This document shows, in pieces, positions 1 through 19,447 of a stretch of 64,000 nucleotides of DNA. Source of the DNA: Streptomyces sp. P9-A2 (GTDB lineage Bacteria > Actinomycetota > Actinomycetes > Streptomycetales > Streptomycetaceae); assembly GCF_036634175.1 (NCBI RefSeq), contig NZ_JAZIFX010000001.1:4898001-4962000 (forward strand), given 5' to 3'. Position 1 is the first letter of the stretch, and each line of letters opens with the position of its first letter. The notes beneath the pieces were generated by a model. That model made no database searches. It was not told where the DNA came from and saw only the letters and a list, made by a program, of their open reading frames with translations. Both the position numbers and the translations under genes were made by a program.

Positions 1-2
1 GC

Positions 3-476
3 GCCGCCACCGAGGTGGAGCTGAAGGAGAAGAAGCACCGTCTGGAGGACGCCATCTCCGCGACCCGCGCCGCGGTCGAGGAGGGCATCGTCTCCGGTGG
101 TGGCTCCGCGCTCGTCCACGCCGTCAAGGTCCTCGAGGGCAACCTCGGCAAGACCGGCGACGAGGCCACCGGTGTCGCGGTCGTCCGCCGCGCCGCCGTC
201 GAGCCGCTGCGCTGGATCGCCGAGAACGCCGGCCTCGAGGGCTACGTCATCGTCTCCAAGGTCGCCGAGCTCGAGAAGGGCAGCGGCTACAACGCCGCCA
301 CCGGCGAGTACGGCGACCTGGTCAAGGCCGGCGTCATCGACCCGGTCAAGGTCACCCGCTCCGCCCTGGAGAACGCCGCCTCCATCGCTTCCCTCCTCCT
401 GACGACCGAGACCCTGGTCGTCGAGAAGAAGGAAGAGGAGGAGCCGGCCGCCGGCGGCCACGGCCACTCCCACTGA
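3..476 (+). CDS. groEL: Chaperonin GroEL, C-terminal part (5' end outside window)
   Basis: This is the last 157 residues of a 60-kDa chaperonin, which folds cytosolic proteins in an ATP-driven double ring with GroES. The reading frame is already open at base 3 ([13 protein letters not shown]), matching the conserved GroEL segment, and continues through the equatorial domain ([18 protein letters not shown], then [19 protein letters not shown]). The protein ends in a Gly/His-rich tail (GGHGHSH) rather than the usual GGM tail. In actinobacteria such a His-rich tail is typical of the groES-linked copy (GroEL1), so this is probably that paralogue; the upstream groES is not visible. A strong hairpin follows about 50 bases after the stop. 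Confidence 0.97.
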
Positions 477-524
477 GCGACTCGCTCATAGCGGCGGGCG
501 TCGGTGACCGACGTCCGTAGCGGA

Positions 525-3945: not shown

Positions 3946-5022
3946 ATGCCCGTACCCTCCGAGACAGAGCCAGGCCGCGCGGGCCTGCCGCTCATCGACC
4001 TCGCCGCCGCGCGGGAACTGTTCCGTACGGCCGAGTCGAGCGGCCTCGGCCGACCGGGGACCGACGAGGTCTTCGACCAATGGCTCAACGACTCCTACGA
4101 CATCGCCTTCTACCGCAACGCGGACCGACCTCTGCAGGCGCGTGCGGTCGACACACGCGACGAGGTGTCCGAGTGGCTGAGCAACAGCCGTGTCGGACAT
4201 GCACGGCTGGAGGCGGTCTGCCTCAACCCGTACCGGCCCGTCCCTCCTCCGCGTGAGGAGCCGGCCTGCGCGTCCGCGGAGGCCGAGGCGGTCGAGGAGA
4301 CCGTGGAGGCCGAGGAGGCGCACGCCTGCACATGGAAGGGCATGCCCGGTCTCTGCTCGGACTGCGAGGGCGGCAATGAGCGCTACGCGACGGTGAGTGG
4401 ACGTCGGGCCCATGCGGACGTCGATGACGACGGATTCGGCCTGGAAGACGGCGGCGGTGACGTCCCGGAAGAAGACAACGGTTACGTCCTGGAACTCATG
4501 GACGCCTGCGCCGGAGGGATGGGAGAGGGCCTGGCCCACGACCTGAGCGGCGGACTCCGGCAGGGCTTTCGCGCATCGTCGCTCCAGGGCCTCAACGTCC
4601 TCACCGAAGTCGCCCAGATGAAGCTGGACATGGAGAGGTGGGACACGGCCGGGCCATGGCGCCTCTCGTGGTCTTTCTGCGAAGGCGACATCACCGACCC
4701 CCTGGACGACACCGAGGACATTGATTCCTCCGGTGACGACCTGGACGGAGGATCAGGCGATGTCCATTACAGCGTCTCGGTCGAGAACGACGGCGACGCC
4801 CACATCGTTCAGGTCGTGGGGACGCGTTGGGGGGATCAGCACGTGTTCTACCGCGAGCCCGTGCCGGAACCCGACGGCGAGTCACAGGACACCGAAACCC
4901 TTGAAGGGCTCCGCAGCCTCCTGGAACGGGCGACCCGCCAGGTACATGACGAGGCCGGTTACGAGGTCAACGGCGAATGGACCGTGAACTGGTCGCGTTG
5001 CCACGTTCTTCTGGCTGAATGA
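3946..5022 (+). CDS. Acidic protein of unknown function
   Basis: A 358-residue protein, ATG at 3946 with GGGAGG nine bases upstream. It is strongly acidic, with runs of Glu around residues 105-125 and Asp around 250-275. Residues 85-145 contain several Cys, including CTWKGMPGLCSDC (C-x8-C-x2-C). The C-terminal part (SVENDGDAHIVQVVGTRWGD..., LLERATRQVHDEAGYEV) has a regular strand/helix pattern that looks folded. No signal peptide or membrane segment. I do not recognise the family. Codon usage is normal for Streptomyces. Confidence 0.7.
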   Translation: MPVPSETEPGRAGLPLIDLAAARELFRTAESSGLGRPGTDEVFDQWLNDSYDIAFYRNADRPLQARAVDTRDEVSEWLSNSRVGHARLEAVCLNPYRPVPPPREEPACASAEAEAVEETVEAEEAHACTWKGMPGLCSDCEGGNERYATVSGRRAHADVDDDGFGLEDGGGDVPEEDNGYVLELMDACAGGMGEGLAHDLSGGLRQGFRASSLQGLNVLTEVAQMKLDMERWDTAGPWRLSWSFCEGDITDPLDDTEDIDSSGDDLDGGSGDVHYSVSVENDGDAHIVQVVGTRWGDQHVFYREPVPEPDGESQDTETLEGLRSLLERATRQVHDEAGYEVNGEWTVNWSRCHVLLAE

Positions 5023-5059
5023 CACGGCAGCCGTAAAGCCCTTCACCAGGCGACAGCCA

Positions 5060-5130
5060 GCATTTACGCTGGTCAGAAGGTTGCTCTCGCATCACCCGTC
5101 CCGGTGGTGCGGTGTGACCGCAGGGAGGTG
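5060..5130 (+). repeat. Dispersed repeat, copy 2 (partner at 1965-2035)
   Basis: Second copy of the element beginning GCATTTACGCTG. It lies 38 bases behind the acidic protein gene and about 70-140 bases before the basic repeat ORF, a position consistent with a leader or promoter module. Confidence 0.5.
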
Positions 5131-5200
5131 GCGGCCCCGGGGAGGGCTGCAGCGGACGGCAGGTCGTCGTCCGCGCGGATCGGTGACATGTGGGGGTGTG

Positions 5201-5719
5201 GTGGGCAACTCCGGGAACGGCCGGGTCGGCAAGCCGCCGGTGAAGATCGAGAACAAGCGAAGCAAGGCCGCGAAGCGGCTCTCCCCGCAGCAAGAGGAAC
5301 TGCGGCGCCTGCGCGCACTGCGGGACCTGGAACGCGTCCGCGAGGCCGAACGGCGGCGCAACGGACTGGACGCCGCTCCGGTCAGAGCCGAGGAGCCGTC
5401 GGGCCCGTCCGCGCCCGGGTACGGGAAACCGCCCAGGCAGCGCACGAAGAAGACCTCGGCCGCCGCTCCGGTCAAGGCCTGGAAGTCGTCGGTCACTCCG
5501 GTCAAGGCCGAGAAGCCGTCGAACCCGGACGACGTCCGCACCGCCGGGACCGTCGGCGAAGACCTCCCCGTTCCGACTCGACAGGGCGGCTCCCCGCGCA
5601 GACCCGCAAGGACACGCCCTGCCGTTACTCGCCACTCCGTTTGTTCGCCCGTTCCAGGATCTGTTCCAGACGGGCTTGCAGCGCGTCGGCCGGCACGGCG
5701 TGCAACCCGCCGCGGGTGA
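5201..5719 (+). CDS. Possible small basic protein with internal repeats
   Basis: A 172-residue frame from GTG 5201 (GGGGG five bases upstream). It has a Lys/Arg-rich N-terminus (KIENKRSKAAKRL), a probable helix (QQEELRRLRALRDLERV) and three imperfect ten-residue repeats of the type APVKAEKPS. The 3' end overlaps the convergent PIN-like gene by about 95 bases, which suggests that the true C-terminus is shorter or that a frameshift extended it. The N-terminal 110 residues look protein-like. Function unknown. Confidence 0.4.
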   Translation: MGNSGNGRVGKPPVKIENKRSKAAKRLSPQQEELRRLRALRDLERVREAERRRNGLDAAPVRAEEPSGPSAPGYGKPPRQRTKKTSAAAPVKAWKSSVTPVKAEKPSNPDDVRTAGTVGEDLPVPTRQGGSPRRPARTRPAVTRHSVCSPVPGSVPDGLAARRPARRATRRG

Positions 5720-6089
5720 GCTTGTAGGCCCAGGGGCCGGGGATGTCGGCGAGAGGCAGGATGTGCTCGTACAGCTCGCGGAAATGTGCGATGCGCCGAC
5801 GCGTGGGGGTGTTGTTGTCGGTGAACACCAGATAGCGGGCAGAGTGCTCGAGGATGGCCCGGAGTTCGAGCGGGTTGCTCAGAATGGCCTTGTCGGCTCC
5901 TACACAGATGCGGCCGTCCGCAGTGGCATCGGCGATCCACTGCTGGTCCTGCACGGCTTCGGCGGGCGTGACGCCGTACAGGTCGCCGATGGTGAGAACG
6001 TCCGGGCACAGCTCTCGGGCCGCCTGAGCGAAGCTCTTGGCGTTCGTGCTCCGGTCCAGGAACAGGCGCAGCCCCCCGGCTTCGGTCAT
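5625..6089 (-). CDS. PIN-like domain toxin of a DUF433-linked toxin-antitoxin pair
   Basis: A 154-residue protein beginning with ATG at 6089 that overlaps the antitoxin stop by four bases (ATGA). The N-terminus GGLRLFLDRSTNAKSFAQA, with an early Asp, the mid DQQWIADATADGRICVGAD and the later LVFTDNN fit a PIN-like nuclease of the VapC45/Mut7-C sort, in which spaced acidic residues hold Mg2+ for RNA cleavage. The C-terminal helices end in a basic tail. Paired downstream of a DUF433 protein, it is most simply the toxin. The exact target RNA cannot be inferred. Confidence 0.75.
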   Translation of the reverse strand: MTEAGGLRLFLDRSTNAKSFAQAARELCPDVLTIGDLYGVTPAEAVQDQQWIADATADGRICVGADKAILSNPLELRAILEHSARYLVFTDNNTPTRRRIAHFRELYEHILPLADIPGPWAYKLTRGGLHAVPADALQARLEQILERANKRSGE

Positions 6090-6826
6090 GCCACCTCGCG
6101 ATCGATCCGTTCCTGTACCTCGGTGACCTGGTCCACCGGCAAGCCATAGTCGTCCGCGACGTCCGCCACCGGTTCCCCGGCACGAAGATCGCCGGCCACG
6201 ACATACAGAGGCGTTCCGGTTGCGGTGAAGAACGGCCGTCCGAAGTTCACGCCCGGAAGCACGGACAGCTCGGCGACCTCGTACCCGGGGAGGTCGATCC
6301 TTCGGGCGTAACCGTCTCCCGGGCTTTCGCCTGGCTCGTCGTACTCGATCCGGGTGAGGAACCGGTCGATGACCTCGCGGAACACGTACTGCCCGTTCTT
6401 CAGGACGATCAGCTTGCGTGTCTCCCGCTTGTCCTCGCCACCGAGGTCGTCGCCGATCTCGTACAGGAGGTCCGCGCCCGCCACGTACAACCGACGGGAG
6501 GCCAGAGCGTGCTCGACTCCGATCCGCTCGCGGACCATCTCGAGCGCCGGCCGGATCTTCTGCAACGGCACCTCCGCGCGACGCAGCGCGGACAGGAACA
6601 TGCCCTCGGCCAGTCCGATGAACGGGATGGACGGGCGAGGCGAGTGGGGCGAGCCCAGGTAGGTGATGAGGGGGGAACCGACCACCTGCGGACGGTCCCG
6701 GAAGGTGTTGCGATAGCCCCGCGCCCAGTTCCGGAAGGTGGAAGGTGCCATGTCCAGGTACCCGGCGGCTTCCGCCTGGGTGTACAGCGGCACGCTGAAG
6801 CGGACATCGTCCATCCGGTCGGTCAC
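6086..6826 (-). CDS. DUF433 domain antitoxin with N-terminal HTH-like region
   Basis: A 246-residue protein, start taken as GTG 6826 because GGAGG lies eight bases upstream; two earlier GTG codons lie too close. The N-terminus (YTQAEAAGYLDMAPSTFRNW) resembles a MerR/HTH_17-type DNA-binding helix pair. The C-terminus (GRPFFTATGTPLYVVAGD..., ADVADDYGLPVDQVTEV) is a DUF433 winged-helix motif. Long DUF433 proteins of this plan occur immediately upstream of PIN-like toxins, as here. Expected roles are toxin neutralisation and autorepression of the pair from a promoter beyond 6830. Confidence 0.78.
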   Translation of the reverse strand: MTDRMDDVRFSVPLYTQAEAAGYLDMAPSTFRNWARGYRNTFRDRPQVVGSPLITYLGSPHSPRPSIPFIGLAEGMFLSALRRAEVPLQKIRPALEMVRERIGVEHALASRRLYVAGADLLYEIGDDLGGEDKRETRKLIVLKNGQYVFREVIDRFLTRIEYDEPGESPGDGYARRIDLPGYEVAELSVLPGVNFGRPFFTATGTPLYVVAGDLRAGEPVADVADDYGLPVDQVTEVQERIDREVA

Positions 6827-6835
6827 CGCCACCAC

Positions 6836-7181
6836 CTCCGCCCCCAGTCTTTCAGCCGCGGGTGTCGGACGATATACGGACCTGACGCCGACTGTGCACG
6901 CTATCCACTATCGAGTGAGTTCCGGCTGTGGAGCTCCGGGCCCGCGGCGCCCTGGGTGCGTCGCCACGGATGCGGCACCCGAGAACGCCGACCCCCCGTC
7001 CGGCGTCCCGTCCCCGTCCGCACCGGTACAGCCAGGGCAGCCCGCACTCTGACTCTCGTCCACGGGTGTCGTCGGGGGTGGGGATCTCGCCAACTCCCTT
7101 GCTGTGGTGGCAGTTGACTCCCTAACATCACGTTCACCATCGCGAATCAAATAGTTGTTCGGGCGCGGCGGGGGGCCTGGT
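6836..7181. other. Gap between divergent antitoxin and PrsW-toxin genes
   Basis: No gene called. One plus-strand frame ending at 7052 (APENADPPSGVPSPSAP...) reads like the Pro-rich tail of a lost protein but has no start. AT-richer sequence at 7120-7165, including CGAATCAAATAG, may include the promoter of the downstream toxin gene. Confidence 0.4.
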
Positions 7182-9314
7182 GTGACGTTGATGATGACGG
7201 TGGCGGCCGTCTGGGGTGTGCTGCAACTGTTCGCCGTTTCCTGGCCGACGCGTTCGGTGCGCCTGTCGACCGTGCTGCTGGCGCTCGTGGTGGGGGTGTA
7301 CGGGTGCGGTGTGGCGACCGCGCTGGTGCAGCTCGCCTACACCCGCATCCACGCGGACCGGTCGGGGCAGTCGCTGGTCACGGTGGTGAACACCACCGGC
7401 TACACGGTGGCTCCCTGGGTGGAGGAGCTGATCAAGATCACCCCGCTGCTGCTGGCGGGGTGGAGCCTGAGGATTCGCCGCCAGTGGGGCCTGACCGACT
7501 TCGTCGTGCTGGGTGGGGCGCTGGGAGCCGGATTCGGGCTGCTGGAGGCGGTGCTCCGGTTCGGCCTGGACGCGGACCGGGCGCTTGTCCGCGGCGAGGG
7601 CTGGATCATCCCCGACAGCCTGTCCCCGCCCTATGTGCCGGGCGCGGGGCAGGTGTTCACGGCCTGGCTGCCCGCACCGTTCAGCCAACTGGACATGGCC
7701 GGACCTCCGGTCACGGAGACCTTCACGCACCTGGTGTGGACGGCCACGGCCGGATTCGGGGTGGGGCTGCTGTGGCGCACACGCGGGTGGGCGCGCCTGC
7801 TGTCGGTGCCGCCCATCGCGGCCGCCGCCGTCCACCACACGGTGAACAACTACGCGGGGCGGAAACCGGGCAGCCAGGCCACGCAGTGGCTCGAGTTCCT
7901 GGACGGGAAGGCATGGGCGGCGCCCCTCCTGTGTCTGGCCGTCGCCATGGCCGTCGACCTGCACCGACTCCACCGGGGCAAGCGCACCGTGCCGAGCGTA
8001 CTGCTCGCTTCCGAACGCGCCGACGGCGACAGTCTGGCAGCCCTGCTGCGCTACGCGGCCTGGCGTCCGCCATGGAGCCTGCTGATCGTGCTGCGCTACG
8101 TCGGACTGCGGCGATCCCTGCTGTACGCCGCCGCGTCGGCGCCGCCCGACGACACCGAAGAACTCCGCCGCGTGGTCGCCGGGATCACCGCGCGGATGGA
8201 CGCGTCGGACAACCAGCACGCCTGGCGGACGGTCGACATCCGTGCCTGGCGGAAGGCGGCCCGAAAGGCCCGCCGTGCCCGGGATCGGTGGCTCCTGCTC
8301 ATCCCGTGCGTCCTCATGCTGCCGTCGCTGCTGTTCCTGGGCGTGGGCTCGTTCCCTTCCACGGCCGGCCTCCAGGAGTCCTTCACCACCGGTGCGGGGC
8401 CGAAGATCCTGATGGGCTTCGGCATCGCCGCCCTCGCCTGGATCGCCTATCAACTCACCATCCTGCTGCGGACCTGGCGGCCCGTGTCCGCCCAGCCCGT
8501 GGGGGAACTCCTGGCCGTCCACCGCTTCCGCCTCGGAACCGCACTGGGAGCGGCCACCACGGGGACGCTCCTGCTGTGGCGCGGGTTCGGGGAAGCGGGT
8601 CCCGACGGCAGGGCGATCCGAACACTGCATCTGCTCGACGCCCTGAACACCTTCCTGGTCTACCTCGGCTTCGCCCTCCTCCTGCTCTCCCTGCTCGCCC
8701 TGTTCCCTCCCGGAGGGCTCGCGCTCGCGGGAGGCGGAGTGGCCGGCGCCCTCACCGCCGAAGCCGCCCTCAGCGCCGGCGTCCTCGGTACGGCCGGAAT
8801 CGTCCTCATGGGGCTGGGCTCCTCTCCTGGCTCTGCCTCCGGCGGGGACTACAACGCGTGGCCCAGGAGCAAACGCAAAGGGCGCACCAGACCCGAGCAT
8901 CGTGCGGATGTCCGCGGTGACGAGGGCAAGAGCCTTGGAGGCAAGAGCAAGGCCCATACCATCGACAAGCATGTCGACAAGACCATTGACGGCATGCGCA
9001 GGCGTCTGCGTGAGGACCCAGGACTTGCCGCGGACTCACGCTACGTCGACGTCGATGCGGCACAACGCTTCACCGACAGGACTCTCGCCCTCGAAAAGAA
9101 CCAGCGGAAGATATCGACCTGGCTCTCCAAGGGCGCGAAGGGGCCACTGCGCCTGGAGGCAAGGTTCGACGAAAACACGGGACTCCACCTCACCCGCTAC
9201 GACTTCACTCATGGACAGCCGACGCAATGGGTGAGAGGGGCTCGTGTCATTCTCAAGGCCGATCCGTCGGCGCCGTCCGGATACCGCGTCCTCACCTCGT
9301 TCCCGCAGCCCTGA
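7182..9314 (+). CDS. PrsW-like membrane protease fused to C-terminal RNase A-like (CdiA-CT) toxin
   Basis: A 710-residue protein; GTG 7182 has GGGGGG about seven bases upstream (TTG 7155 is an alternative). Residues 1-270 are multi-pass membrane with PrsW-type intramembrane metalloprotease motifs: EELIK at 81-85, GAGFGLLEAV with a conserved Glu, a His in ETFTHLVW, and VHHTVNN. A cytosolic basic stretch and further membrane helices follow (about 395-550), with a Gly/Ala-rich run. From about residue 580 the sequence becomes soluble: GGKSKAHTIDKHVDKT with His592 and His597, a helix ending in AQRFTDRTLALEKNQRKI, and a final YRVLTSFPQP. This is the pattern of the bacterial RNase A-like CdiA-CT toxin family. 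An immunity gene starts ten bases after the stop. Inferred role: a membrane-tethered polymorphic toxin, possibly released by proteolysis. Confidence 0.82.
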   Translation: MTLMMTVAAVWGVLQLFAVSWPTRSVRLSTVLLALVVGVYGCGVATALVQLAYTRIHADRSGQSLVTVVNTTGYTVAPWVEELIKITPLLLAGWSLRIRRQWGLTDFVVLGGALGAGFGLLEAVLRFGLDADRALVRGEGWIIPDSLSPPYVPGAGQVFTAWLPAPFSQLDMAGPPVTETFTHLVWTATAGFGVGLLWRTRGWARLLSVPPIAAAAVHHTVNNYAGRKPGSQATQWLEFLDGKAWAAPLLCLAVAMAVDLHRLHRGKRTVPSVLLASERADGDSLAALLRYAAWRPPWSLLIVLRYVGLRRSLLYAAASAPPDDTEELRRVVAGITARMDASDNQHAWRTVDIRAWRKAARKARRARDRWLLLIPCVLMLPSLLFLGVGSFPSTAGLQESFTTGAGPKILMGFGIAALAWIAYQLTILLRTWRPVSAQPVGELLAVHRFRLGTALGAATTGTLLLWRGFGEAGPDGRAIRTLHLLDALNTFLVYLGFALLLLSLLALFPPGGLALAGGGVAGALTAEAALSAGVLGTAGIVLMGLGSSPGSASGGDYNAWPRSKRKGRTRPEHRADVRGDEGKSLGGKSKAHTIDKHVDKTIDGMRRRLREDPGLAADSRYVDVDAAQRFTDRTLALEKNQRKISTWLSKGAKGPLRLEARFDENTGLHLTRYDFTHGQPTQWVRGARVILKADPSAPSGYRVLTSFPQP

Positions 9315-9323
9315 CACGCACGC

Positions 9324-9992
9324 TTGGAGCACCTCATGAGTCAGGCACTTCCGCCAGGGCACCGATTCCATGAACTCGGCAACCTGCTCGCGGCCTACAC
9401 GTACACCGGCTTCACGTTCTCCGACACCACGGAAGCCCCGGGCCCCGGCCTGGCCTCCTACCTCAGGATCGCCGCAGGGGACCCTGAGCGTGCCGCAGTT
9501 GCGATCCAGCAAATCGACGACCTGCTCTCCGTCGGACTCTTCTCCGAAGAGATCGCGGATGAGGTGGAATGCCTCCCTCACATCCGCCCTCCGATGGGGG
9601 CAAGCGTGGAGGACTGCCTGCGCATCGCAAGGGGCCACCTTCACCGGTTCCTGGAGGACCCGTCCCGAGTTCCCCCGGCGAACCCGCAGACCCCTTGGGA
9701 GTGGAACGAGCGATTCCCGGCCCTGAGTCAGTTGCTCGGCGCCTACTTCCACCGGGATTTCTCCTACCTCTACGATTCTCGCGACGAGGCTCTCGACGAG
9801 TACGCCAGCGAAACCGAACCGGAGGACCGTGCGCAAGCAGTGCAGGAGATCGGTGAACTCCTGACCACGGTGTCCTCGGATCAGGAACTCCACACCGCGG
9901 CTACAGCACTGGGACTCGACCTTCTGCCGCCGCAAGGGATGTCACTCCGGCAATGGCTGGAGTCGATCCGCCGAAGGATCGCTGCGGCATAG
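9324..9992 (+). CDS. CdiI-like immunity protein with two tandem immunity domains
   Basis: A 222-residue acidic protein; the first start is at 9324, with ATG 9336 also possible. The C-terminal half (FPALSQLLGAYFHRDFSYLY, then AVQEIGELLTTVSSDQEL) fits the CdiI_2-type immunity domain. The N-terminal half repeats the same plan in diverged form (FHELGNLLAAYTYTGFTFSD, then AIQQIDDLLSVGLFSEEI). It lies ten bases behind the toxin gene on the same strand, so it should be co-translated and neutralise the RNase domain. The second domain may protect against a variant toxin or stiffen binding. No membrane segment, as expected for a cytosolic immunity protein. Confidence 0.8.
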   Translation: MEHLMSQALPPGHRFHELGNLLAAYTYTGFTFSDTTEAPGPGLASYLRIAAGDPERAAVAIQQIDDLLSVGLFSEEIADEVECLPHIRPPMGASVEDCLRIARGHLHRFLEDPSRVPPANPQTPWEWNERFPALSQLLGAYFHRDFSYLYDSRDEALDEYASETEPEDRAQAVQEIGELLTTVSSDQELHTAATALGLDLLPPQGMSLRQWLESIRRRIAAA

Positions 9993-10039
9993 CGACGGGC
10001 GTACACCGGAGTGCCACCGAAGGGTACGGACCGCATCAG

Positions 10040-10379
10040 GTTCCAGGGTCTTGAGGACCGCGGAGTCCTCCCCGGACGCGGGAGCGCGGTCCAGTTCGTC
10101 GGTGATGCGCCGGTGGAGTTCGGTGAGCCGGGCCGTCGCCCGGTGGTGGTTGCTCAGCAGGTTCCGTGCGGTGACGAACAGCCAGCCGGTGCTCACCTCC
10201 TCGCCGCCGAGAGTGCGTTCCCACGCGATCCGGAAGACCTCGGCCGTCAGTTCCTCCGCCGTGCCGCGGTCACCGACGCGCCGGTGCACAAAGGCGGACA
10301 CGCGCGGATGGTCACGGGCGTAGAAGGCCGTGAACCGTGCGGCGCGCTCCCGGTCGGTAGCAGTCTGGATGTCGTCCAC
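10040..10379 (-). pseudogene. ECF sigma factor fragment (region 2 only)
   Basis: The frame from 10379 encodes ERAARFTAFYARDHPRVSAF followed by GTAEELTAEVFRIAWERT and GWLFVTARNLLSNHHR, a good match to sigma-70 region 2 of ECF factors (core binding and -10 recognition). After SAVLKTL the homology ends: the expected region 4 (RLPE...REVL...HTH) is missing and the frame continues into unrelated sequence overlapping the immunity gene. The product cannot recognise a -35 element, so I regard it as a 3'-truncated remnant. No anti-sigma gene is adjacent. Confidence 0.65.
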
Positions 10380-10500
10380 ACCCCGTACATGTCATGAGCC
10401 CGGCACTTCCTTACACCACACCCTCCGGTGCCGGCTGCCGCGTGCCGGCCGTTGTCGCTACGGTGGGGCGGCAGTCGGAGCGCGACGGGAAGCGGTGGGG

Positions 10501-11133
10501 ATGAGAACGGACCTGGCTGAGCGGCGGCGGCAGGCCCGGCGGGAGCGCCGTGCGCGGGTCGAGAGGCTCGCCGGGACGATGTCGGCGCCGGAGGCGCCGC
10601 TGGTGTGGGGTGCCGGGTGGGGCGCAAGGGGGACGGCGGCGGTCTGGTGCGTCATGTTCGTGGCAGTGGCCGATCACCCGGCCGAGGCGGCCCTGGCGCA
10701 TCCGCAGCCGGTTGCCTCGATCTTTGCGCTGTGGTGTTCGCTGGTCGTCGGCTGGATATGCAGCTGGCTGGCGCTGTGGCGGATCACCGCTGACCGGGAC
10801 GGCGTGCACATACGCCGCCTGTGGTCCACGCGGTTCCTGTCGTGGTCGACGATCAGCCGTGTGGAGATGCGGCACGACGGGCAGCTGGAGTTCTTCGGCC
10901 CGGAGAAGGAGCCCATGGCCGGGCTGTTCTCGCCGCCCTGGCTGAGCCGCGTCCTCCGTCGTTCCGGCGGGAGAGGTCAGACGGCGGCCGACATGCTGTC
11001 CGCCATGGTCCGGCACAGCCGGCTGCGCCCCACCGCGCAGGCCGAACGTGCGCTGATCGGTTCAGGACTCGTCCGATGGGCGGTCGCCCTGGCCGTCGGG
11101 CTGTACGGCGCGGCCGCATTCCTGCACCGCTGA
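10501..11133 (+). CDS. Membrane-anchored PH-like domain protein
   Basis: A 210-residue protein; ATG 10501 or GTG 10495, with GGGAAG upstream. An Arg-rich cytosolic N-terminus is followed by two hydrophobic segments (about residues 40-58 and 75-95), then the bPH_6-like pattern ITADRDGVHIRRLWSTRFL with SWSTISRVEM, found in many small actinobacterial membrane proteins. A last membrane segment (VRWAVALAVGLYGAAAFL) closes the protein. Such proteins are uncharacterised. It is flanked by a sigma-factor remnant and a transposase scrap, so it may have arrived with mobile DNA. Confidence 0.68.
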   Translation: MRTDLAERRRQARRERRARVERLAGTMSAPEAPLVWGAGWGARGTAAVWCVMFVAVADHPAEAALAHPQPVASIFALWCSLVVGWICSWLALWRITADRDGVHIRRLWSTRFLSWSTISRVEMRHDGQLEFFGPEKEPMAGLFSPPWLSRVLRRSGGRGQTAADMLSAMVRHSRLRPTAQAERALIGSGLVRWAVALAVGLYGAAAFLHR

Positions 11134-11189
11134 CACCACCTGCCCGTGTCCACCTCTCCAGCACCCTCTCAGCAGTGAGGAATGCGAAG

Positions 11190-11386
11190 GCGAGCACGGC
11201 GATGCAGTGCGCGTCTTTCTCCTGGACCAGGAACTTCGCGTGGTCGGTCTGGGTCGGCAGCGCGTCGAAGGTCACCACCGCGCCGGTCAGGTCAAGCGGG
11301 TCCAGCAATGGCCGGAACGCGGTGATCTCGTTGCTCTTGGCATCGACCTCGCGCTGGGCCGGGGCGAACTCCGCCTGATGTGGCAC
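11190..11386 (-). pseudogene. ISAs1-type transposase fragment
   Basis: About 60 residues (EFAPAQREVDAKSNEITAF, then GAVVTFDALPTQTDHAKF, LVQEKDAHC) match the internal segment of ISAs1/H-repeat DDE transposases around the second catalytic Asp (normally VVTADALHTQ). Homology stops at about 11195, where the frame runs into unrelated sequence, and no terminal repeats are visible. The fragment abuts the stop codon of the next minus-strand gene, so the deletion junction lies at about 11387. Confidence 0.7.
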
Positions 11387-11389
11387 CAG

Positions 11390-12301
11390 TCAGTACAGCG
11401 GCGTCTGCGGTATGTGGTGCTCCGGCCAGAAGGGGTCGTGCGGAGGCTGGGGCGGGTTGGCCCGGGCCTCCGCGGCGGCCTTCGCGAGGCGGCTCGGCCA
11501 TTCCGCCGCCCACATCAGGGCGACCGTCCCGACGAGGGGCCAGAAGCCGTCGACGTGCAGCAGACCGGTGAGCCAGACGATGAGCCAGAGCACCAGCGCG
11601 TTGACCGACACGAGGATCAGCGACGCCACACCAGGCACGGGCAGCGTCAGGGTCAGCGAGAACCGCAGATGGAACAGGGCGGCGACGACGGCGAGCGTCA
11701 GCCACTGCGTGCCCGTCGCTTCCACGCCGTCCAGCCACACCACCGCGAGCGCCAGGCCCGCCAAGCACAAGAGGCAGTTGATCAGCGAACGCAGGGCCCC
11801 GGGGCGGCGGCGCTTCACCGGCACGGCGAGCACGAGCAGCAGCACCGTCTCCACGGCGGCGACGGCGAGTCCGGCGGTGACGAGGGCCTTGAGCCCACCG
11901 CCGAACTCAACGTCCAACCCCAGCCCGGCACCCAACTCCACCCCGGCCCACAACCCCGCAGGCCCCACCACTGTCAGGACGACGGCCGACAACACCATGC
12001 CCAGCCCGACAAGGACCGCATGCCTGCGCAGCGGCGCGAAGAACTCCCAGTCGGAGCCGCCCCAATCGGGCTCCTCCCCCATGCGCCGCTGATTCCGCAC
12101 CACGGCCCGCCCGAGCATCCGCATCAGGGGCATGGGCACGAGCGTGACGACGGCGGTGAACACGGCAGCGAGGGCGACCACGGACCCCACCCGCTCGCCC
12201 ACGGTGCCGCCAACCCGTAACTGGCCCACGACCTCGGAGGCCACCCACACCCCGACGGCCGCGCACCCCCACTTTCCGATGACCCGCCCCGTTGTCTTCA
12301 T
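11390..12301 (-). CDS. Multi-pass membrane protein, function unknown
   Basis: A 303-residue protein starting at ATG 12301; the open frame extends upstream only as antisense-like Arg-rich sequence. At least seven hydrophobic segments can be drawn, among them VVALAAVFTAVVTLVPM, HAVLVGLGMVLSAVVLTVV, VETVLLLVLAV and ASLILVSVNALVLWLIVWL. Short basic loops (NQRRMGEEPDW, PVKRRRPG) separate them. The tail is Pro-rich and cytosolic (NPPQPPHDPFWPEHH). No transporter or enzyme motif is apparent. The weak ribosome site and strong GTG/GCC codon bias still support coding. Confidence 0.65.
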   Translation of the reverse strand: MKTTGRVIGKWGCAAVGVWVASEVVGQLRVGGTVGERVGSVVALAAVFTAVVTLVPMPLMRMLGRAVVRNQRRMGEEPDWGGSDWEFFAPLRRHAVLVGLGMVLSAVVLTVVGPAGLWAGVELGAGLGLDVEFGGGLKALVTAGLAVAAVETVLLLVLAVPVKRRRPGALRSLINCLLCLAGLALAVVWLDGVEATGTQWLTLAVVAALFHLRFSLTLTLPVPGVASLILVSVNALVLWLIVWLTGLLHVDGFWPLVGTVALMWAAEWPSRLAKAAAEARANPPQPPHDPFWPEHHIPQTPLY

Positions 12302-12558
12302 GGAGCCAGAATCCCGCCCGGAACGCCGCGGCGAAACCCCACCGGCACGGAGTCGCCGGTTCACCCGGCCGTGACCTCGACGACAGCTGCTACCGCTGGT
12401 GCCCGCTCCGCCGGCCCTCACGGCAGGCATGGCCACCGCAGCCGGCGCGCTCACTCGTTGCGCCGTCTGTACCGGCCGTTCCGGCGCCCGGTCCGGACAC
12501 GGCCGACGGCTCCCGCCCTGCGAACAAGGGGGAGCCGTCCACAAGCGCCGTCGGGGGG

Positions 12559-12837
12559 TCAGGCGTGACGGTGGGAATGCCGGTTGCCGGCGATGAGGCG
12601 GTACAGGGCGAGCAGGATGAGGGAGCCGACGATCGCGGCGATCCAGGTGGAGAGCTCGAAGAACCCGTCGATGGAGTCGACGCCGAAGATCACCTTGCCG
12701 AGCCAGCCGCCGAGCAGCCCGCCGGCGATGCCGATCAGCATGGTGATGATGATGCCACCGGGGTCCTTGCCCGGCATGATGAACTTGGCGATGGCGCCGG
12801 CGAGCAGGCCGATGACGATCCACGCGATGATGCCCAT
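12559..12837 (-). CDS. GlsB/YeaQ/YmgE family stress-response membrane protein
   Basis: A 92-residue protein, ATG 12837 with GGAGA upstream. It has the full family pattern: IIAWIVIGLLAGAIAKFIMP, GKDPGGIIITMLIGIAGGLL, GGWLGKVIF, and a third helix (TWIAAIVGSLILLALYRLI). These transglycosylase-associated-type proteins are small three-helix membrane proteins induced by envelope or acid stress; their biochemical role is unclear. The His-rich tail NRHSHRHA is typical of actinobacterial members. Confidence 0.9.
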   Translation of the reverse strand: MGIIAWIVIGLLAGAIAKFIMPGKDPGGIIITMLIGIAGGLLGGWLGKVIFGVDSIDGFFELSTWIAAIVGSLILLALYRLIAGNRHSHRHA

Positions 12838-13020
12838 TGCTGTCTCCGTCCCGTCGTAAAGACCGTGTCAGTTCCTCGTCTGTACCGTCCGCGCCCGAAC
12901 AAACCTGTTCTTCGTCCCGCAACCCCGACCGCCCTTGAGCCGAGTGAAGTGGCGCGGCGTCGAATCGGGCCCCCACCGCGCTGCGGGCCGGCGGTGAACG
13001 TCCCCCACGCAAGGAGCAGC

Positions 13021-13227
13021 ATGACCAAGCGGCACATTGGCACCGCCCTGGCAGCCGCAGGAGCACCACTGTCCCTGACCGGGGCCGTGCTGTACGTCCT
13101 GCCCGGACCCGGCCTCCCCGTCCTCGTCACCGGTTTGGCCACGCTCATCGCCGGCCTCTTCACACTCGCCCTGACCCGCCGTGACCGACCACGCCCACGA
13201 CCCCGACAGGAACCCCACGACCGATGA
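13021..13227 (+). CDS. Small membrane protein, first of three
   Basis: 68 residues; ATG 13021 preceded by AAGGAG at six bases. Two hydrophobic helices (LSLTGAVLYVLPGPGLPVL and GLATLIAGLFTLAL) and a highly basic tail. Its stop overlaps the next start (ATGA). No recognised family. The cluster arrangement of tiny overlapping membrane genes resembles the spread-type genes of actinobacterial conjugative elements, which is an inference from layout only. Confidence 0.6.
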   Translation: MTKRHIGTALAAAGAPLSLTGAVLYVLPGPGLPVLVTGLATLIAGLFTLALTRRDRPRPRPRQEPHDR

Positions 13228-13520
13228 CCTGGCAGTGGATCGGCCTCGCCGTCTCCTCCCTCACCCTGCTGCCGGCGGGCGTCGCCCTGCTCACCGGCCA
13301 CGTGCCCCAGCGGCTGCGCCCCCGCCTTGCCCCGATGCGCCTCCGCGGCCTTTGCCTCCTCGCCTTTTACACCGTCGCGCCGCTCAACGCCGTTCCCCGC
13401 CTAGCCGGCGCCTCACCTTCGATCACCCTGGCCGCCACCGGCCTGGGAATGCTGGTGGCGCTCGCGGTATGCATCACGATGACCGTCACCGCTCAGCGGA
13501 CCGGGGAGACGGCCCGATGA
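13224..13520 (+). CDS. Small membrane protein, second of three
   Basis: 98 residues, translationally coupled to the genes on both sides by ATGA overlaps (13224 and 13517). Three hydrophobic stretches: WIGLAVSSLTLLPAGVALL, LCLLAFYTVAPLNAVPRL and LAATGLGMLVALAVCITMTV. An Arg/Pro-rich loop joins the first two. Function unknown. Confidence 0.62.
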   Translation: MTWQWIGLAVSSLTLLPAGVALLTGHVPQRLRPRLAPMRLRGLCLLAFYTVAPLNAVPRLAGASPSITLAATGLGMLVALAVCITMTVTAQRTGETAR

Positions 13521-13768
13521 CCGGCCGCACACGCCGGCGGCGGCACGCCTGGTCGCTCACAGCCTGGTGGCTGCTGCTCACCCTGACGCTGTGGATCCTC
13601 GGGCAGGCCGTCGACCAGGTCGCCTCTCCTGCGGCCTGCGCCGCCTCCGCGGCGTTGCTGGCCGGCATCGGGGAGACCGGCGATTGGGTGCGTCGACGCT
13701 GGACGACACACCGTGGACAGGCAGGGGCGGCTTCGAAGAGGCCCCGTTCCCCGCACATGCGGGGGTGA
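13517..13768 (+). CDS. Small membrane protein, third of three; tail encoded by a CRISPR-like repeat
   Basis: 83 residues, coupled to the previous gene by ATGA. A basic N-terminus (TGRTRRRRH) is followed by two hydrophobic segments (SLTAWWLLLTLTLWILGQ and AACAASAALLAGIG). The last residues, SPHMRG, and the stop codon are encoded by the CRISPR-like repeat at 13744-13771, so the natural C-terminus may have been altered when that sequence arrived. Confidence 0.55.
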   Translation: MTGRTRRRRHAWSLTAWWLLLTLTLWILGQAVDQVASPAACAASAALLAGIGETGDWVRRRWTTHRGQAGAASKRPRSPHMRG

Positions 13769-13771
13769 GCC
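13744..13771 (+). repeat. Single type I-E CRISPR-like repeat unit
   Basis: The 28 bases have the I-E repeat plan: TCCCCGC, a short ATG-containing loop, GCGGGGG, then TGAGCCG. This closely matches repeats of Streptomyces type I-E arrays. No second copy occurs at the 61-base spacing on either side and no cas gene is in the window, so this is a solitary unit or a chance look-alike. Confidence 0.4.
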
Positions 13772-13901
13772 GCGCGCTCTCGTCGGTGGGAGGCCTCGCT
13801 CAGTGCGGTGTGTGTGCCTGCCGGGATTTCCGGCGCGTCACACCGGACGTCGTGCGGGCGCGGTCGCCACACGGCGGTGCCGTCCGCGCCCGCAGTCGGT
13901 T

Positions 13902-14306
13902 TCAGGATCCCTTGATCAGTTTCGTGACCTCGGGCGGCAGGTCTTCGGAGAAGTCGACGGCGACGAGGAGAACGTCGTCGGGCGCGTCGTCCACCGCGAG
14001 GGCGATGCGGGGATCCACTCCCTCGATCGCGTAGGCGACCGTCGAGTCCGGTGACGCCTGGTCGCTCCCGTCATCCGACGAGTCGTCGCAGGGCACGAAG
14101 ACAGCCGGCCCCAGCTTCTTGCCGAGAGTGAATTCGGCGTTGGCCACGTCCGAGTACATACGCTCGTCGTACTCGACTCGGAACTCGCACGACGCTTCCG
14201 ACCCGCCGTCGCTCGACGACGTGCAGGCGGCGGACAGCACGAGGGCGGCACCCGCCACCAGTGCCCTCACGAGGGCCTTCCGCCCGACCGGCAGTACGGC
14301 TTTCAC
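13902..14306 (-). CDS. Lipoprotein, DUF6281-like
   Basis: 134 residues. The start is GTG 14306, preceded by GGAGGAGGT at six bases; the frame is open further but upstream sequence belongs to a protease remnant. Signal peptide with lipobox LSAACT (Cys 29 or so), then SSSDGGSEASCEFRVEYDER, a second Cys in VFVPCDD, and a C-terminal VDFSEDLPPEVTKLI strand-helix. I believe it belongs to a Streptomyces-restricted lipoprotein family (DUF6281). The two mature Cys may form a disulfide. Function unknown. Confidence 0.7.
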   Translation of the reverse strand: MKAVLPVGRKALVRALVAGAALVLSAACTSSSDGGSEASCEFRVEYDERMYSDVANAEFTLGKKLGPAVFVPCDDSSDDGSDQASPDSTVAYAIEGVDPRIALAVDDAPDDVLLVAVDFSEDLPPEVTKLIKGS

Positions 14307-15415: not shown

Positions 15416-15499
15416 GTCCGCCCATCCCCTGGAGGCCCTGCCGTCCCGATTCTCCCTCAGCCTCCCTCAGTCACGGCAGGGGCCGAAGACGAGTACGGC

Positions 15500-16132
15500 T
15501 CAGGTCTGCGGATACGCCGGCACGATGTGCTCGACCAAGCGCCACATTGCGGTTGACGGGTTCCTCTTGTGCTCCTCACCCGGCTTCGCCAGCGCCCGCG
15601 CCCGTTCCACTGCCTGTGGCCAGGCCTCCCGGTAAAGGTCGAAGGCGAACCTGTCCGCGGCCTTGCTGTACCCGCGGTGGTGGGGGACGAGGTGCCGCTC
15701 GGCCTGCCGGAAGCCGTCGACCGGGGCGCGGTGGTCGCGGAAGTGGAGCAGCAGCCACAGCTCGAAGCACGGGTTCGACAGGGCGACGTCGATGCCCTCA
15801 CTGTGGGCCAGCCGCAGCGCCTCGTCGAGATGCGCGAAGTCATCCACGTCCAGGACGCACCAGGCGTGGGAATAGTGGTCGCCCGCGCGCCTGCGCTCGC
15901 CCGCCGCGTGCCGGACCACGGATACCGGATCCTGCGGACAGACCTTGACCCGGACATCCACGGCACGATTGTCGACCGCTCTCAAAAGGCCTCTGAGGTA
16001 AGCCGGTTCGGTATTCCTCGCCCCGCACACCACCAGGATCGTCGGTAACGAATCCCGGTACGCCGGCCTGCGGCGCAGCGTGGACTCACGCCTCGGAGCC
16101 CTCCGGCCGTCCCGCTTCGGATCCCTCGCCAC
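15500..16132 (-). CDS. RloB-like protein (AbiL-type defence partner)
   Basis: 210 residues from GTG 16132 (GGGGGGAA at five bases), overlapping the upstream ATPase gene by 47 bases. It fits the RloB family: an early hydrophobic strand ILVVCGARNTEPAYLRGLL with an acidic residue, HAWCVLDVDDFAHLDEALRL with an Asp cluster, ALSNPCFELWLLLHF, and the basic tail HKRNPSTAMWRLVEHI. The fold is TOPRIM/nuclease-like. Together with the ATPase it makes a complete RloAB pair, equivalent to AbiLi/AbiLii, proposed to give phage abortive infection. Both key acidic sites look intact. Confidence 0.8.
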   Translation of the reverse strand: MARDPKRDGRRAPRRESTLRRRPAYRDSLPTILVVCGARNTEPAYLRGLLRAVDNRAVDVRVKVCPQDPVSVVRHAAGERRRAGDHYSHAWCVLDVDDFAHLDEALRLAHSEGIDVALSNPCFELWLLLHFRDHRAPVDGFRQAERHLVPHHRGYSKAADRFAFDLYREAWPQAVERARALAKPGEEHKRNPSTAMWRLVEHIVPAYPQT

Positions 16133-17426
16133 CCGTTTCCCCCCGCCCGGCGATCGCCAGCGTGAACGTGTCGTCGATCATGGGCACCGCGCCGTAGCTC
16201 CCACTCAGATAGCGCCGTTCCCGGTTCTCTTCCTGGCGCGGCCGGAAGTCGGACAGCGGATACAGCGAGCTCTCTCCGAACTCGTTCTTCGTCACGAACC
16301 AGATCTGGTCCCGCTTCAGAATGTCCTCCCCGGCCCTACGGCCCAGCAGGCTCACGTCATGACTGGTGAACAGCAATTGAGCGCCCCTCGGGTTGCGCTC
16401 CGGGTCCTGGAAGAGACCGACCAGAAACGAGCTGAGCCGCGGGTGCAGGCTGCTGCCCAGCTCGTCCACCACCAGGGTGCCACCGCGACGGGCCACCCCC
16501 TCCAGCGTGAACGCGTACTCCACCAGCGCCTGCGTACCGGCGGACTCCGCGTCCAGCGGCACCTCGAACGGACCGTTCCTACCGGTGTGCCTCAACAGCA
16601 GCTCGTGGCGTGTCCGTCGGTGGGGCCTCGGCATGTCGAAGAGCGTGTCCTTTTCGGCACCCCGGGGGACGGACCGCGACGAGTACAGCTCCTCCTCGAC
16701 CGTCTCCACGCGGAAATCCTCGATACCGAGGTCCGCGACGCGCAGCAGATCCCGTAGATGGGCGGGCTCTCCCTGTCGGTCCAGCCGACGTGCGAGGTTC
16801 CTGAGCATCAGCGCGCGGTGCATCGGCCCATTCGTCAAGGAGCCGCCAAACACCAGGTCGCTCCGGAACCACCTGTACACCGGGTAGACGACGTCCGTGA
16901 CCCTCTTCGATCGGGCGGCCACCGAAAGGAACAGCGCATTGGGAGCCGTCACGTCGGCGACCGTGTGCAGTTCCTTGTGCCGGTCCTGCGAACTGCCGAC
17001 ACGGAAGTCGTCCCCGGTCCGCTCGAACACCACCCGCCTGCGTCCCTCCGGGTAGGTGTACAACCACTCGCCGACGACACACTCGTCGTCCACCTCGAAG
17101 CCGTACACGTACCTGATCCCGCGCACCAGGAGGTCGGCGACGTACCAGGACGAGTCCGTCTCCCGGACGTCTGAAAGGAACGGCTGTCTGCTCACGCCCT
17201 CGCCGTCCTCCGCCAGGAGATGCGAGCGGTTCACCATCTCCGCCATGTAGCGCAGCGCGTCGACGATGTTCGATTTACCGGCCGCGTTCGAACCGAAGAT
17301 GCCCGCGACCGGTACCGCCTCCCATGCGGTGCCCGGCGGCCGGTCCCCCTCGTACACCGGTTGAAGCTGCCACTCCAGCTCCTCGCGGATCGAGCGGTGA
17401 TTGGCCACCCTGAAGTTCAGAAGCAT
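16086..17426 (-). CDS. RloA-like AAA ATPase (AbiL-type defence)
   Basis: 446 residues; ATG 17426 chosen because GGGAGGGGG is correctly spaced (GTG 17432 is too close). N-terminal LNFRVANHRSIREELEWQL is typical of AAA_15/RloA. The Walker A is GSNAAGKS (residues 45-52). The middle carries the coiled arm region, and the Walker B is LVVDELGSSLHP (Asp321-Glu322) with the switch LLFTSHDVSLL. All catalytic motifs are present, so the protein should be active. The partner RloB gene follows with a 47-base overlap. A degraded relative lies at 2690-2826. Expected role: nucleotide-dependent sensor/activator for the RloB effector. Confidence 0.85.
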   Translation of the reverse strand: MLLNFRVANHRSIREELEWQLQPVYEGDRPPGTAWEAVPVAGIFGSNAAGKSNIVDALRYMAEMVNRSHLLAEDGEGVSRQPFLSDVRETDSSWYVADLLVRGIRYVYGFEVDDECVVGEWLYTYPEGRRRVVFERTGDDFRVGSSQDRHKELHTVADVTAPNALFLSVAARSKRVTDVVYPVYRWFRSDLVFGGSLTNGPMHRALMLRNLARRLDRQGEPAHLRDLLRVADLGIEDFRVETVEEELYSSRSVPRGAEKDTLFDMPRPHRRTRHELLLRHTGRNGPFEVPLDAESAGTQALVEYAFTLEGVARRGGTLVVDELGSSLHPRLSSFLVGLFQDPERNPRGAQLLFTSHDVSLLGRRAGEDILKRDQIWFVTKNEFGESSLYPLSDFRPRQEENRERRYLSGSYGAVPMIDDTFTLAIAGRGETGGEGSEAGRPEGSEA

Positions 17427-17546
17427 GAGCACCCCCTCCCGCAGCTAGTTTCACCGGGCTTTGTGCAAGTGAATCGCCGGTGGAGGGGGTTGGCAAGAAA
17501 AATCGCGCAATCAGGTACCGGAACAAGCCGTACGGGTGTCGTTCCG

Positions 17547-18251
17547 TCAGGGCACCGGTGGTGCGGACCGGAGGTCCTTGACGAAGAGGCTGTCCAGCAC
17601 CTCCCACTCGCTGGCCCGGTCCACCACCTCCACGGTGCGACCGTCCAGCACGGGTGTGGCACGCGGGTCCTCCGCCGGCAGCAGCAGCCACAGGCCGTGC
17701 GGGACGTCGGCCGGCCGTCTGGCCGCCTGCTGGAGAGCGGCCAGGAGTTCGCGGCCGCCGGCCTCCCAGTAGCGGGCGATCAGACCGGCCTCGTGGGCGA
17801 GCAGGACCGTGCGCGGACCCGAGCGTTCCGCGAGGTCCACCACCCGCCGCCGGACCCGTTCGGCCGCCGACCGCGTGTACGAGGCGAGCGCCGCGCCCAG
17901 CAGACCGGTCACCGTGAACTTGGCGTCCGCCTTCAACAGGGCCTGCCGGCGCACGGACTGCTCCTCGGCCAGCTCCTTCAGCGCGTCCAGGAACAGGGTG
18001 TTCAGCGGGACACCGGTCACCTCGAACCGCTCCGCCAACGCCCGCGCGGTCCCCGGCAGCTCGGCACCCTTCAAGGTCAGGGCCACGAAACCGCCCCGGC
18101 GGCGGGCCTCACCCAGCCGCGCGGACAGCACCTCCCGCGGATCCCTGCCCTCGGCGATACGGCCCTGCGCGGCGGCGTAGAGCGAACCGGTACTCGGCAG
18201 GACCGAGGAGGACAACCCCAGCCGACTGCCCGGCGGCTCTGCCGACTCCAC
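17547..18251 (-). pseudogene. C-terminal fragment of a large Pgl/BREX-type protein (tentative)
   Basis: 234 residues of good coding sequence (LPSTGSLYAAAQGRIAEGRD, GGFVALTLKGAELPGTARAL, RTVLLAHEAGLIARYWEAGG, HGLWLLLPAEDPRATPVLDG). No ribosome site or plausible N-terminus is present; just upstream is low-complexity repeat next to the SDR gene. The sequence reads like the extreme C-terminus of long Streptomyces proteins linked, as far as I recall, with Pgl/BREX phage-resistance loci. That link is from memory and uncertain. Position beside RloAB supports a defence-island remnant. Confidence 0.5.
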
Positions 18252-18382
18252 CCTCAGCCCTGGACGGTGCCGGTGCCGGTGCCGCTGCAACTGCCACCCG
18301 CCCAGGCCGTGGCAGCCTGGGCGGTCATGGCGGTCATGGCGGTCCGGCCGGTCGGAGTGGTCCGACCGGTCATGGTGGTCCG

Positions 18383-19156
18383 CTACTGAGGTCCGTACTT
18401 GCGGCCCGTCCGTGAGGAGAAGCCGCCCAGGAGACCGCGCGGCACCAGCTTCGCCGCTCCCATCAGGGTCTTGTAGCGCACGTCCGGGATCGACACCGAC
18501 TTGCCGCGGGCCAGGTCCGCGAGAGCAGCCTCGGCCACCTTGTCCGCGTCCAGCCACATCCAGTTCGGGATGTTGTCCGTCCCCATCCCCGCCCGCTCAT
18601 GGAACTCGGTGCGTACGAAGCCGGGGCACAGCGCCATCAGCCGTACGCCGCTGCCCGCCAGGTCCTGTGCCGCACCCTGGGTGAACTGCACGACCCACGC
18701 CTTGGACGCCCCGTAAGTGCCGCGCGGTACGAACGCCGCGGTCGAGGCGACGTTCACGACGCCTCCGCGCCCGCGCTCCCGCATCGCCTCCACCGCCGCC
18801 GTCGTCAGCCGGAGCACCGCCTCGCAGTGCACCTTGAGCATCCTCAGCTCGTCCGCCATGGGGACCTCGAGGTACCGGCCCTTGTTGCCGAAGCCCGCGT
18901 TGTTGATCAGCAGGTCGACGGGGTTCTTACGATCACCCAGCCGCTCGGTCACCGTCTCGATGCCCTTGTCCTCGGACAGGTCGGCCGTCAGCACCTCCGC
19001 CTCGATGCCATGGCGGTCGTGGAGCTCGGTCGCCTGCTCCCGGAGTCTGCCGATGTCGCGGGCCACCAGCACCAGGTCATGCCCGTCGGCCGCCAGCCGC
19101 CGCGCGAACGCGGCACCGATCCCGGCCGTCGATCCCGTAATCAGAGCGGTTGTCAT
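18383..19156 (-). CDS. Short-chain dehydrogenase/reductase
   Basis: 257 residues with the classical SDR signature: nucleotide site TGSTAGIGAAFARRLA (TGxxxGIG), a NNAGFG motif, a catalytic Ser in VNVASTAAF, and YGASK (YxxxK). The TADLSED segment contacts the adenine ring. Arg residues after the Gly-rich loop and VLVARD suggest NADP(H) preference. The substrate is unknown; the C-terminus (SVSIPDVRYKTLMGAAKLVP) is typical of the YqjQ/DltE-like subgroup. It starts the conserved core region on this side of the island and is followed on its 3' side by a tandem-repeat run (18296-18380). Confidence 0.92.
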   Translation of the reverse strand: MTTALITGSTAGIGAAFARRLAADGHDLVLVARDIGRLREQATELHDRHGIEAEVLTADLSEDKGIETVTERLGDRKNPVDLLINNAGFGNKGRYLEVPMADELRMLKVHCEAVLRLTTAAVEAMRERGRGGVVNVASTAAFVPRGTYGASKAWVVQFTQGAAQDLAGSGVRLMALCPGFVRTEFHERAGMGTDNIPNWMWLDADKVAEAALADLARGKSVSIPDVRYKTLMGAAKLVPRGLLGGFSSRTGRKYGPQ

Positions 19157-19447
19157 GGCGCAAGACTAGTTACCCGGAGTCGGGGCGTCCGGTCGGGATC
19201 ACCGTCCCGGCCGGTGCACTGAAGCCCGGCCGGATCAGTCGCTCCCGCGCCCGCCCCTCAACCCGCCCCACCCTTCCACCCGTTTCCGTCTCCGTTTCCG
19301 TCTCCGTCTCCGTTTCCGTCCCATGCCCGGCATGGCCCGGCGGGGTACCGGCCGGACTGACGGACTGTCGGACTGCCGGTCAAGAGCAGGTGCTCGGTGC
19401 TCACGGGACGGCCCTGCAGGCCGTGGCCGGTGAGCGGCGACCGGCCG

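Follow-up and report, generated by a model that had tools for sequence, protein, structure and literature searches.

What a membrane protease might be doing with a nuclease-like C-terminus, directly ahead of a gene for a presumptive immunity protein, is the question raised by a locus in a Streptomyces chromosome, analyzed here within a window of 64,000 nucleotides that spans contig positions 4898001-4962000. An initial annotation had read one ORF as a PrsW-like carrier of an RNase A-like CdiA-CT toxin, followed by its immunity gene, and had offered an interpretation of the pair. These three identifications hold, whereas the interpretation as a whole is only partly supported. The reading frame is open from 7155 or 7182 to 9314 on the + strand, and the Pfam domains above curated cut-offs in this ORF and the adjacent gene confirm both. 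The fusion is placed at 7182..9314 (+), a protein of 710 amino acids with a GTG start; 7182 is the likely start because the GTG or ATG of relatives aligns with this GTG in the 23 leaders compared. The EELIK motif at residues 81-85 and the C-terminal LTSFPQP are present as described. The leader, 7091..7181 (+), is conserved with the gene, the homology of most close relatives beginning at 7084-7091. It contains TTGCTG-N18-TAACAT, which we read as promoter-like, and in most close relatives a TCGCG..CGCGA dyad at window 7115-7150, imperfect in the window itself, that is a possible operator. A consensus scan of 6850-10450 detected neither a sigma-70-type promoter nor a terminator, and Rfam gave no match within 4000-14000.

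The PrsW-type membrane domain was recovered by Pfam as PF13367 (PrsW-protease; residues 30-131, 42.1 bits against a cut-off of 23.5, E 9e-11). The protease core spans residues 1-263 (7182..7970, +) with about 7 membrane helices, and an extension reaching residue 509 (7974..8708, +) adds a basic loop, residues 265-374, and helices 8-11. A search with residues 1-570 found 282 homologues, 120 of which, the window's protein included, were analyzed as the matches listed. The 117 of these proteins exceeding 600 amino acids were aligned with 16 hand-picked locus proteins, and in all 133 carriers E81, E82, K85, E122, H183, H219 and N223, which we take to make up the PrsW motif, are invariant. Pfam finds no PF13367 in P0029 or P0054, even at E 1, or in the RHS-type protein of locus L047 at E 0.01, so that the PrsW membership of these three rests on alignment. 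Hydropathy and loop charges averaged over the carrier rows suggest, in our reading, that the N-terminus lies outside and the basic loops inside, with about 7 helices in the core and the motif residues near the outer ends of these helices. AlphaFold helices agree with hydropathy and include an extra, low-confidence helix at 526-547; mean pLDDT of the five models ranges from 57 to 73, and fold searches with the whole of this long model listed no structure that could convincingly be taken as kin to the carrier. We set aside the idea that the gene is merely the usual housekeeping PrsW; the genome's other PrsW match is a separate open frame of 526 amino acids.

The toxin domain occupies residues 591-710 (8952..9311, +); the annotated C-terminal domain is present, with a length nearer 120 than 130 residues. 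Its RNase A-like CdiA-CT identity is borne out by the RNAse_A_bac profile (PF18431, residues 591-708, 85.1 against 27 bits, E 8e-24) and by a fold match to 5E3E, and toxin and immunity protein match the two partners of that single solved complex. Aligned to CdiA-CT Ykris, with numbering deduced from spacing, H597, R608 and T705 are the equivalents of H175, R186 and T276, and the Y278 position is F707. According to the review PMC9086364, Tyr278 is reported to be necessary for full activity of the crystal homologue. Catalytic residues were matched by pattern in the 57 RNase A-family proteins, window included, among the matches listed: every matched row (56 of 56) retains the site H and R (P0090, 1 of the 57, falls outside the N-terminal pattern), T is present in 57, the matching pattern itself requiring it, and the Tyr278 position is F in 41 and Y in 16. 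Because this position varies within the Pfam family, membership by profile and fold stands and the claim of full activity is lowered. The prevalence of Phe would suit a toxin inactivated or weakened by the change from Tyr278, in a module kept chiefly for immunity. We regard this as improbable, given the retention of H, R and T, the full length of the domain, and the wide distribution of the Phe within the clade, which resembles a trait of the lineage and not decay. The toxin is very probably RNA-cutting, with RNA as its presumed target.

The cognate immunity gene, 9336..9992 (+), encodes 218 amino acids with tandem CdiI_2-like domains at about 8-107 and 124-216. Its claimed kinship to CdiI_2 is confirmed by PF18593 at residues 126-215 (88.1 against 26.7 bits, E 7e-25) and by the match of its CdiI fold to 5E3E. 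The two CdiI_2-like halves are 27% identical (E 8e-7), the N-terminal half being an extra, diverged copy that had been overlooked. The spacing of ten bases given earlier holds only if TTG 9324 is the start; the better and most likely start, ATG 9336, sits behind GGAG, 21 nt past the toxin stop.

A survey of C-termini among PrsW ORFs, proposed with the original reading, found anything but an invariant end. The 115 classifiable proteins among the matches listed (120 of 282) fall into 10 tail groups, of 57 (RNase A-like), 35, 6, 6, 4, 2, 2, 1, 1 and 1 members; for P0078, P0087, P0104, P0113 and P0121 (5 of the 120) no cut between carrier and tail was possible, and the groups do not include them. 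Two singletons with short odd tails, P0091 and P0119, are possibly broken genes, and Pfam assigns CdiA_C to two groups that were kept apart, P0097/P0100 and P0103, which leaves about 7 distinct intact toxin families among these matches. The carriers of P0029 and P0054, two proteins that their source labels S. chartreusis, agree at 542 of 543 residues, yet the tails have nothing in common, the first protein ending in RNAse_A_bac and the second being without any Pfam match. A FastTree tree of the carriers requires a minimum of 36 changes of toxin label, versus 44-55 in 100 shuffles. All relatives bearing names are Streptomyces. Toxin class 1, the tail of 35 of the 115 carriers among the matches listed, has no Pfam match, and its best match to solved structures (E 0.29) is not meaningful. 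Four class 1 proteins carry the name "RNase A-like" in the source; scans of one of them, P0054, did not support it.

Immunity genes were traced by search (tblastn, E 1e-8) for two toxin classes, in 49 loci (47 without two duplicate contigs) from 50 sequences, L060 having no match. Behind the RNase A toxin comes its CdiI_2 gene in 16 of 16 loci, in which count L008/L061 and L010/L062 are the same contigs, each entered twice. Toxin 1 likewise has an immunity gene of its own behind it in 6 of 6 (L005, L006, L009, L065, L066 and L068); the product of the latter gene begins MIWTYCEQW and has no Pfam match, and the two are possibly an undescribed toxin-immunity pair. In 2 of the 33 other loci, L065 and L068, a CdiI_2 gene occurs without its toxin, both times directly behind toxin 1 and immunity 1, and L063 presents the reverse case, a 57-residue immunity 1 remnant behind an RNase A pair. 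Loci L067 (G106) and L068 (G148) are 95% identical in DNA across 9.1 kb of flank and carrier, lack any similarity over 504 versus 1,033 bases, and then resume at 94% identity across 4.7 kb; in L068 the RNase A toxin survives as a degenerate 3' end ahead of the orphan immunity gene. L064 and L065 repeat this swap pattern at 83-92%. A common small gene lies directly behind the carrier in all four loci (L069, L071, L074 and L081) with a CdiA_C tail (PF18451, one of the four scanned), and the two are likely a third toxin-immunity pair. At the level of sequence, then, the carrier is constant and its PrsW signature intact, the toxin is swappable, its cognate immunity gene moves along with it, and orphan immunity genes are kept.

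The exchange point coincides with a constant hydrophobic segment at residues 512-547 (8715..8822, +), in which Gly and Ala make up 50-60%, against 12-39% in helices 1-11, and which includes the low-confidence possible helix 12 at 526-547. It is conserved whichever toxin comes next (G539 at 1.00 and G536 at 0.99 of 117 rows among the matches listed), and conservation drops past residue 547. Similarity blocks between loci stop at carrier residues ~532 to ~552; toxin exchange thus falls in or just after the segment, the exchanged part beginning near residue 547. The basic linker, residues 548-590 (8823..8951, +), is swapped together with the toxin. Since linkers look unrelated across toxin classes, a fixed processing site would have to sit in the constant part, and we propose the Gly/Ala-rich helix at the junction as the obvious candidate. 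Tentatively, the PrsW glutamic protease might cut its own last helix (526-547) and so free any recombined toxin without a dedicated secretion machine; a universal site in the helix, not the linker, would account for exchange in or just after it. Cleavage by PrsW, taken as a step by itself, has roughly even chances. The toxin might otherwise be released by lysis, vesicles or other proteases while PrsW serves stress signalling or assembly, an idea compatible with use of the toxin between cells. No cleavage site or product is known and the linkers differ fully between toxin classes, as such release would allow, but the seven motif residues are invariant in all 133 toxin carriers (matches listed plus locus proteins) and the fusion is retained with every toxin type seen, so that we hold PrsW-independent release to be possible but rather doubtful.

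The side of the membrane on which the toxin lies follows from the number of helices, outside if 12 and inside if 11. Loop charges of helices 1-11 place the chain after helix 11 in the cytoplasm, and RNase A-class toxins have a strongly basic linker, both of which count against a toxin outside. Putative helix 12 has a pLDDT of ~30 and a roughly estimated insertion energy of median 0.28 kcal/mol over 117 rows (matches listed), on a scale that is itself rough; its crossing of the membrane is possible on these models.

In same-toxin relatives, similarity to the window begins at 7084/7091 and extends to about 9992-10013, with fewer shared bases in L004, L008/L061, L072, L080 and the interrupted L057. 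L015 additionally shares window 1-479 and 18385-20000, parts of 15496-18558 recur in L010/L062, and 17568-18232 recurs in L013, which indicates that in these loci the module occupies one chromosomal neighbourhood but has differing immediate flanks; the other same-toxin relatives have no further shared stretch within the bases compared. From this shared extent and the differing flanks, leader, fusion and immunity gene appear as a unit with sharp edges in a variable region. Simple movement of the unit from site to site was abandoned as an explanation, because L015, L013 and L010/L062 share window stretches beyond it. A plasmid-borne unit was likewise rejected (among 72,556 plasmid records, 0 reach 80% coverage of the fusion, and 10 match the toxin end only), as was a phage gene, the toxin domain having no match in 50,697 phage records (E 1e-3) and the carrier no PHROG match. 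The toxin domain does match phrog_25038 (E 1.4e-10) and the immunity protein phrog_16822 (1.9e-4), so that such domains do occur in phage families.

Beside the module, window 5628-6835 (-) holds a PIN_10 gene and an HTH_66/DUF433 gene, likely a toxin-antitoxin pair from their domains; HTH/DUF433 DNA occurs in 6 of 392 Streptomyces genomes, our own included. On the other side, a frame at 9945-10379 (-) that ends within the immunity gene has Sigma-70 region 2 only and no region 4. Genome G028 has a related open frame of 292 amino acids, and nearby DNA there matches window 3-428 inverted; from this arrangement the stretch between 3-428 and the sigma frame looks inserted or rearranged.

At E 1e-20, 36 of 392 Streptomyces genomes have the carrier (own genome counted, some matches partial). 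It also occurs in 10 of 297 genomes sampled across the family (1 of 17 genera) and, at E 1e-10, in 3 of 394 sampled across the class (1 of 137 genera). Ten of the 392 Streptomyces genomes have a carrier-bearing frame of 1,739-1,784 amino acids; two such long frames were scanned with Pfam, and both have RHS repeats and DUF6531, while PrsW passes in one. Genome G165 (L078, 10039-13252) has a carrier in an RHS-sized frame of 1,753 amino acids back to back with a short-type carrier, and in G204 (L073, 7248-16361) a pair of short-type carriers point the same way, with a frameshift in the second. In G193 (L057, 1945-14841) the carrier gene is split by ~10 kb of extra DNA, with full-length toxin and immunity parts. 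A stretch of Streptomyces clavuligerus with no gene listed (NZ_CP027859.1, 605326-605682) matches the toxin domain at 35.5% identity, and a toxin-like stretch occurs in two more S. clavuligerus records.

We consider it probable that the locus is a two-gene polymorphic toxin-immunity module for intercellular conflict between related Streptomyces. The carrier would sit in the membrane with its PrsW site near the outer face. PrsW would cut the toxin off the carrier, most simply inside the constant Gly/Ala-rich helix 526-547; the freed RNase would get into neighbouring hyphae and degrade RNA, and cells with the matching double CdiI_2 protein would survive. Swapped toxins, their pairing with immunity genes and the orphans among these genes all speak for the suggested kin discrimination; the lack of an export or entry partner within the two-gene unit counts against use between cells. 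Phage-triggered suicide, also suggested at the outset, is unsupported here, the 3 proteins having 0 matches in PADLOC-DB. More generally, the toxin could be cytoplasmic, held by its immunity protein until PrsW, or membrane damage from phage or envelope stress, frees it inside the cell that made it. Such intracellular suicide keeps some weight because the loop charges leave the toxin inside unless the uncertain helix 12 crosses, and an adjacent immunity gene would suit an antitoxin role too. It is nevertheless unlikely: besides the PADLOC result, RHS-fused versions, near-identical carriers with swapped toxins and orphan immunity genes are the usual marks of intercellular conflict, and the charge pattern faces the PrsW site outward, away from a cytoplasmic linker.

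If intercellular conflict is indeed the role of the module, Gram-positive soil bacteria would display or release swappable toxins without a secretion machine. The locus is a compact test case, with a solved homologous complex, a precise guess at the cut site, and natural allele pairs, G106/G148 and P0029/P0054 (labelled S. chartreusis), that differ mainly in the toxin-immunity cassette.

The initial annotation had judged the idea not wholly new and the two-gene form little studied. The class has indeed been known since PrsW-linked polymorphic toxins were predicted in 2012 (Zhang et al., PMC3482391), and among the openly licensed papers listed by our searches, where it is the one we recognised as dealing with such toxins, none showed an experiment on them. 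As described in that paper, most members have eight helices and carry toxins via a short linker, and RHS forms also occur. The present fusion shares with them an N-terminal PrsW joined to a C-terminal toxin; a Streptomyces protein is among those described, and auto-processing was proposed there. It is unlike them in having 11-12 carrier helices, a toxin of RNase A-like type and an immunity protein with tandem CdiI_2 domains, and in the swap pairs that occur naturally at one locus. The paper has RNase A-like Ntox groups of its own, and "kristensenii" has 0 occurrences in the first 300,000 of the 357,715 characters of its main text. The PF18431, RNAse_A_bac or NCBI product name also leads to one Klebsiella T6SS paper. 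To CdiA-CT/CdiI of Yersinia kristensenii (5E3E; PMC9086364) the locus is alike in toxin fold, in the site H175/R186/T276 and in immunity fold, and unlike in having PrsW in place of CdiA, F in place of Y278 and a doubled immunity protein; the two-partner hallmark of CDI is absent, Pfam at E 1 giving PrsW and toxin only and no haemagglutinin-repeat CdiA carrier. MafB2-CT of Neisseria meningitidis, as described in PMC9970974, is likewise a polymorphic toxin domain of RNase A-like type that has an immunity partner, and by that description is set apart by another carrier and another immunity fold. The umbrella toxins, too, are polymorphic toxin domains used between Streptomyces; they are secreted complexes, with no PrsW carrier mentioned in the portion of PMC11062931 consulted, whereas the module described here has one. 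Relative to these systems, what appears new is the RNase A-type member, the natural swap pairs, the doubled CdiI_2 and the constant Gly/Ala-rich helix that PrsW might cut.
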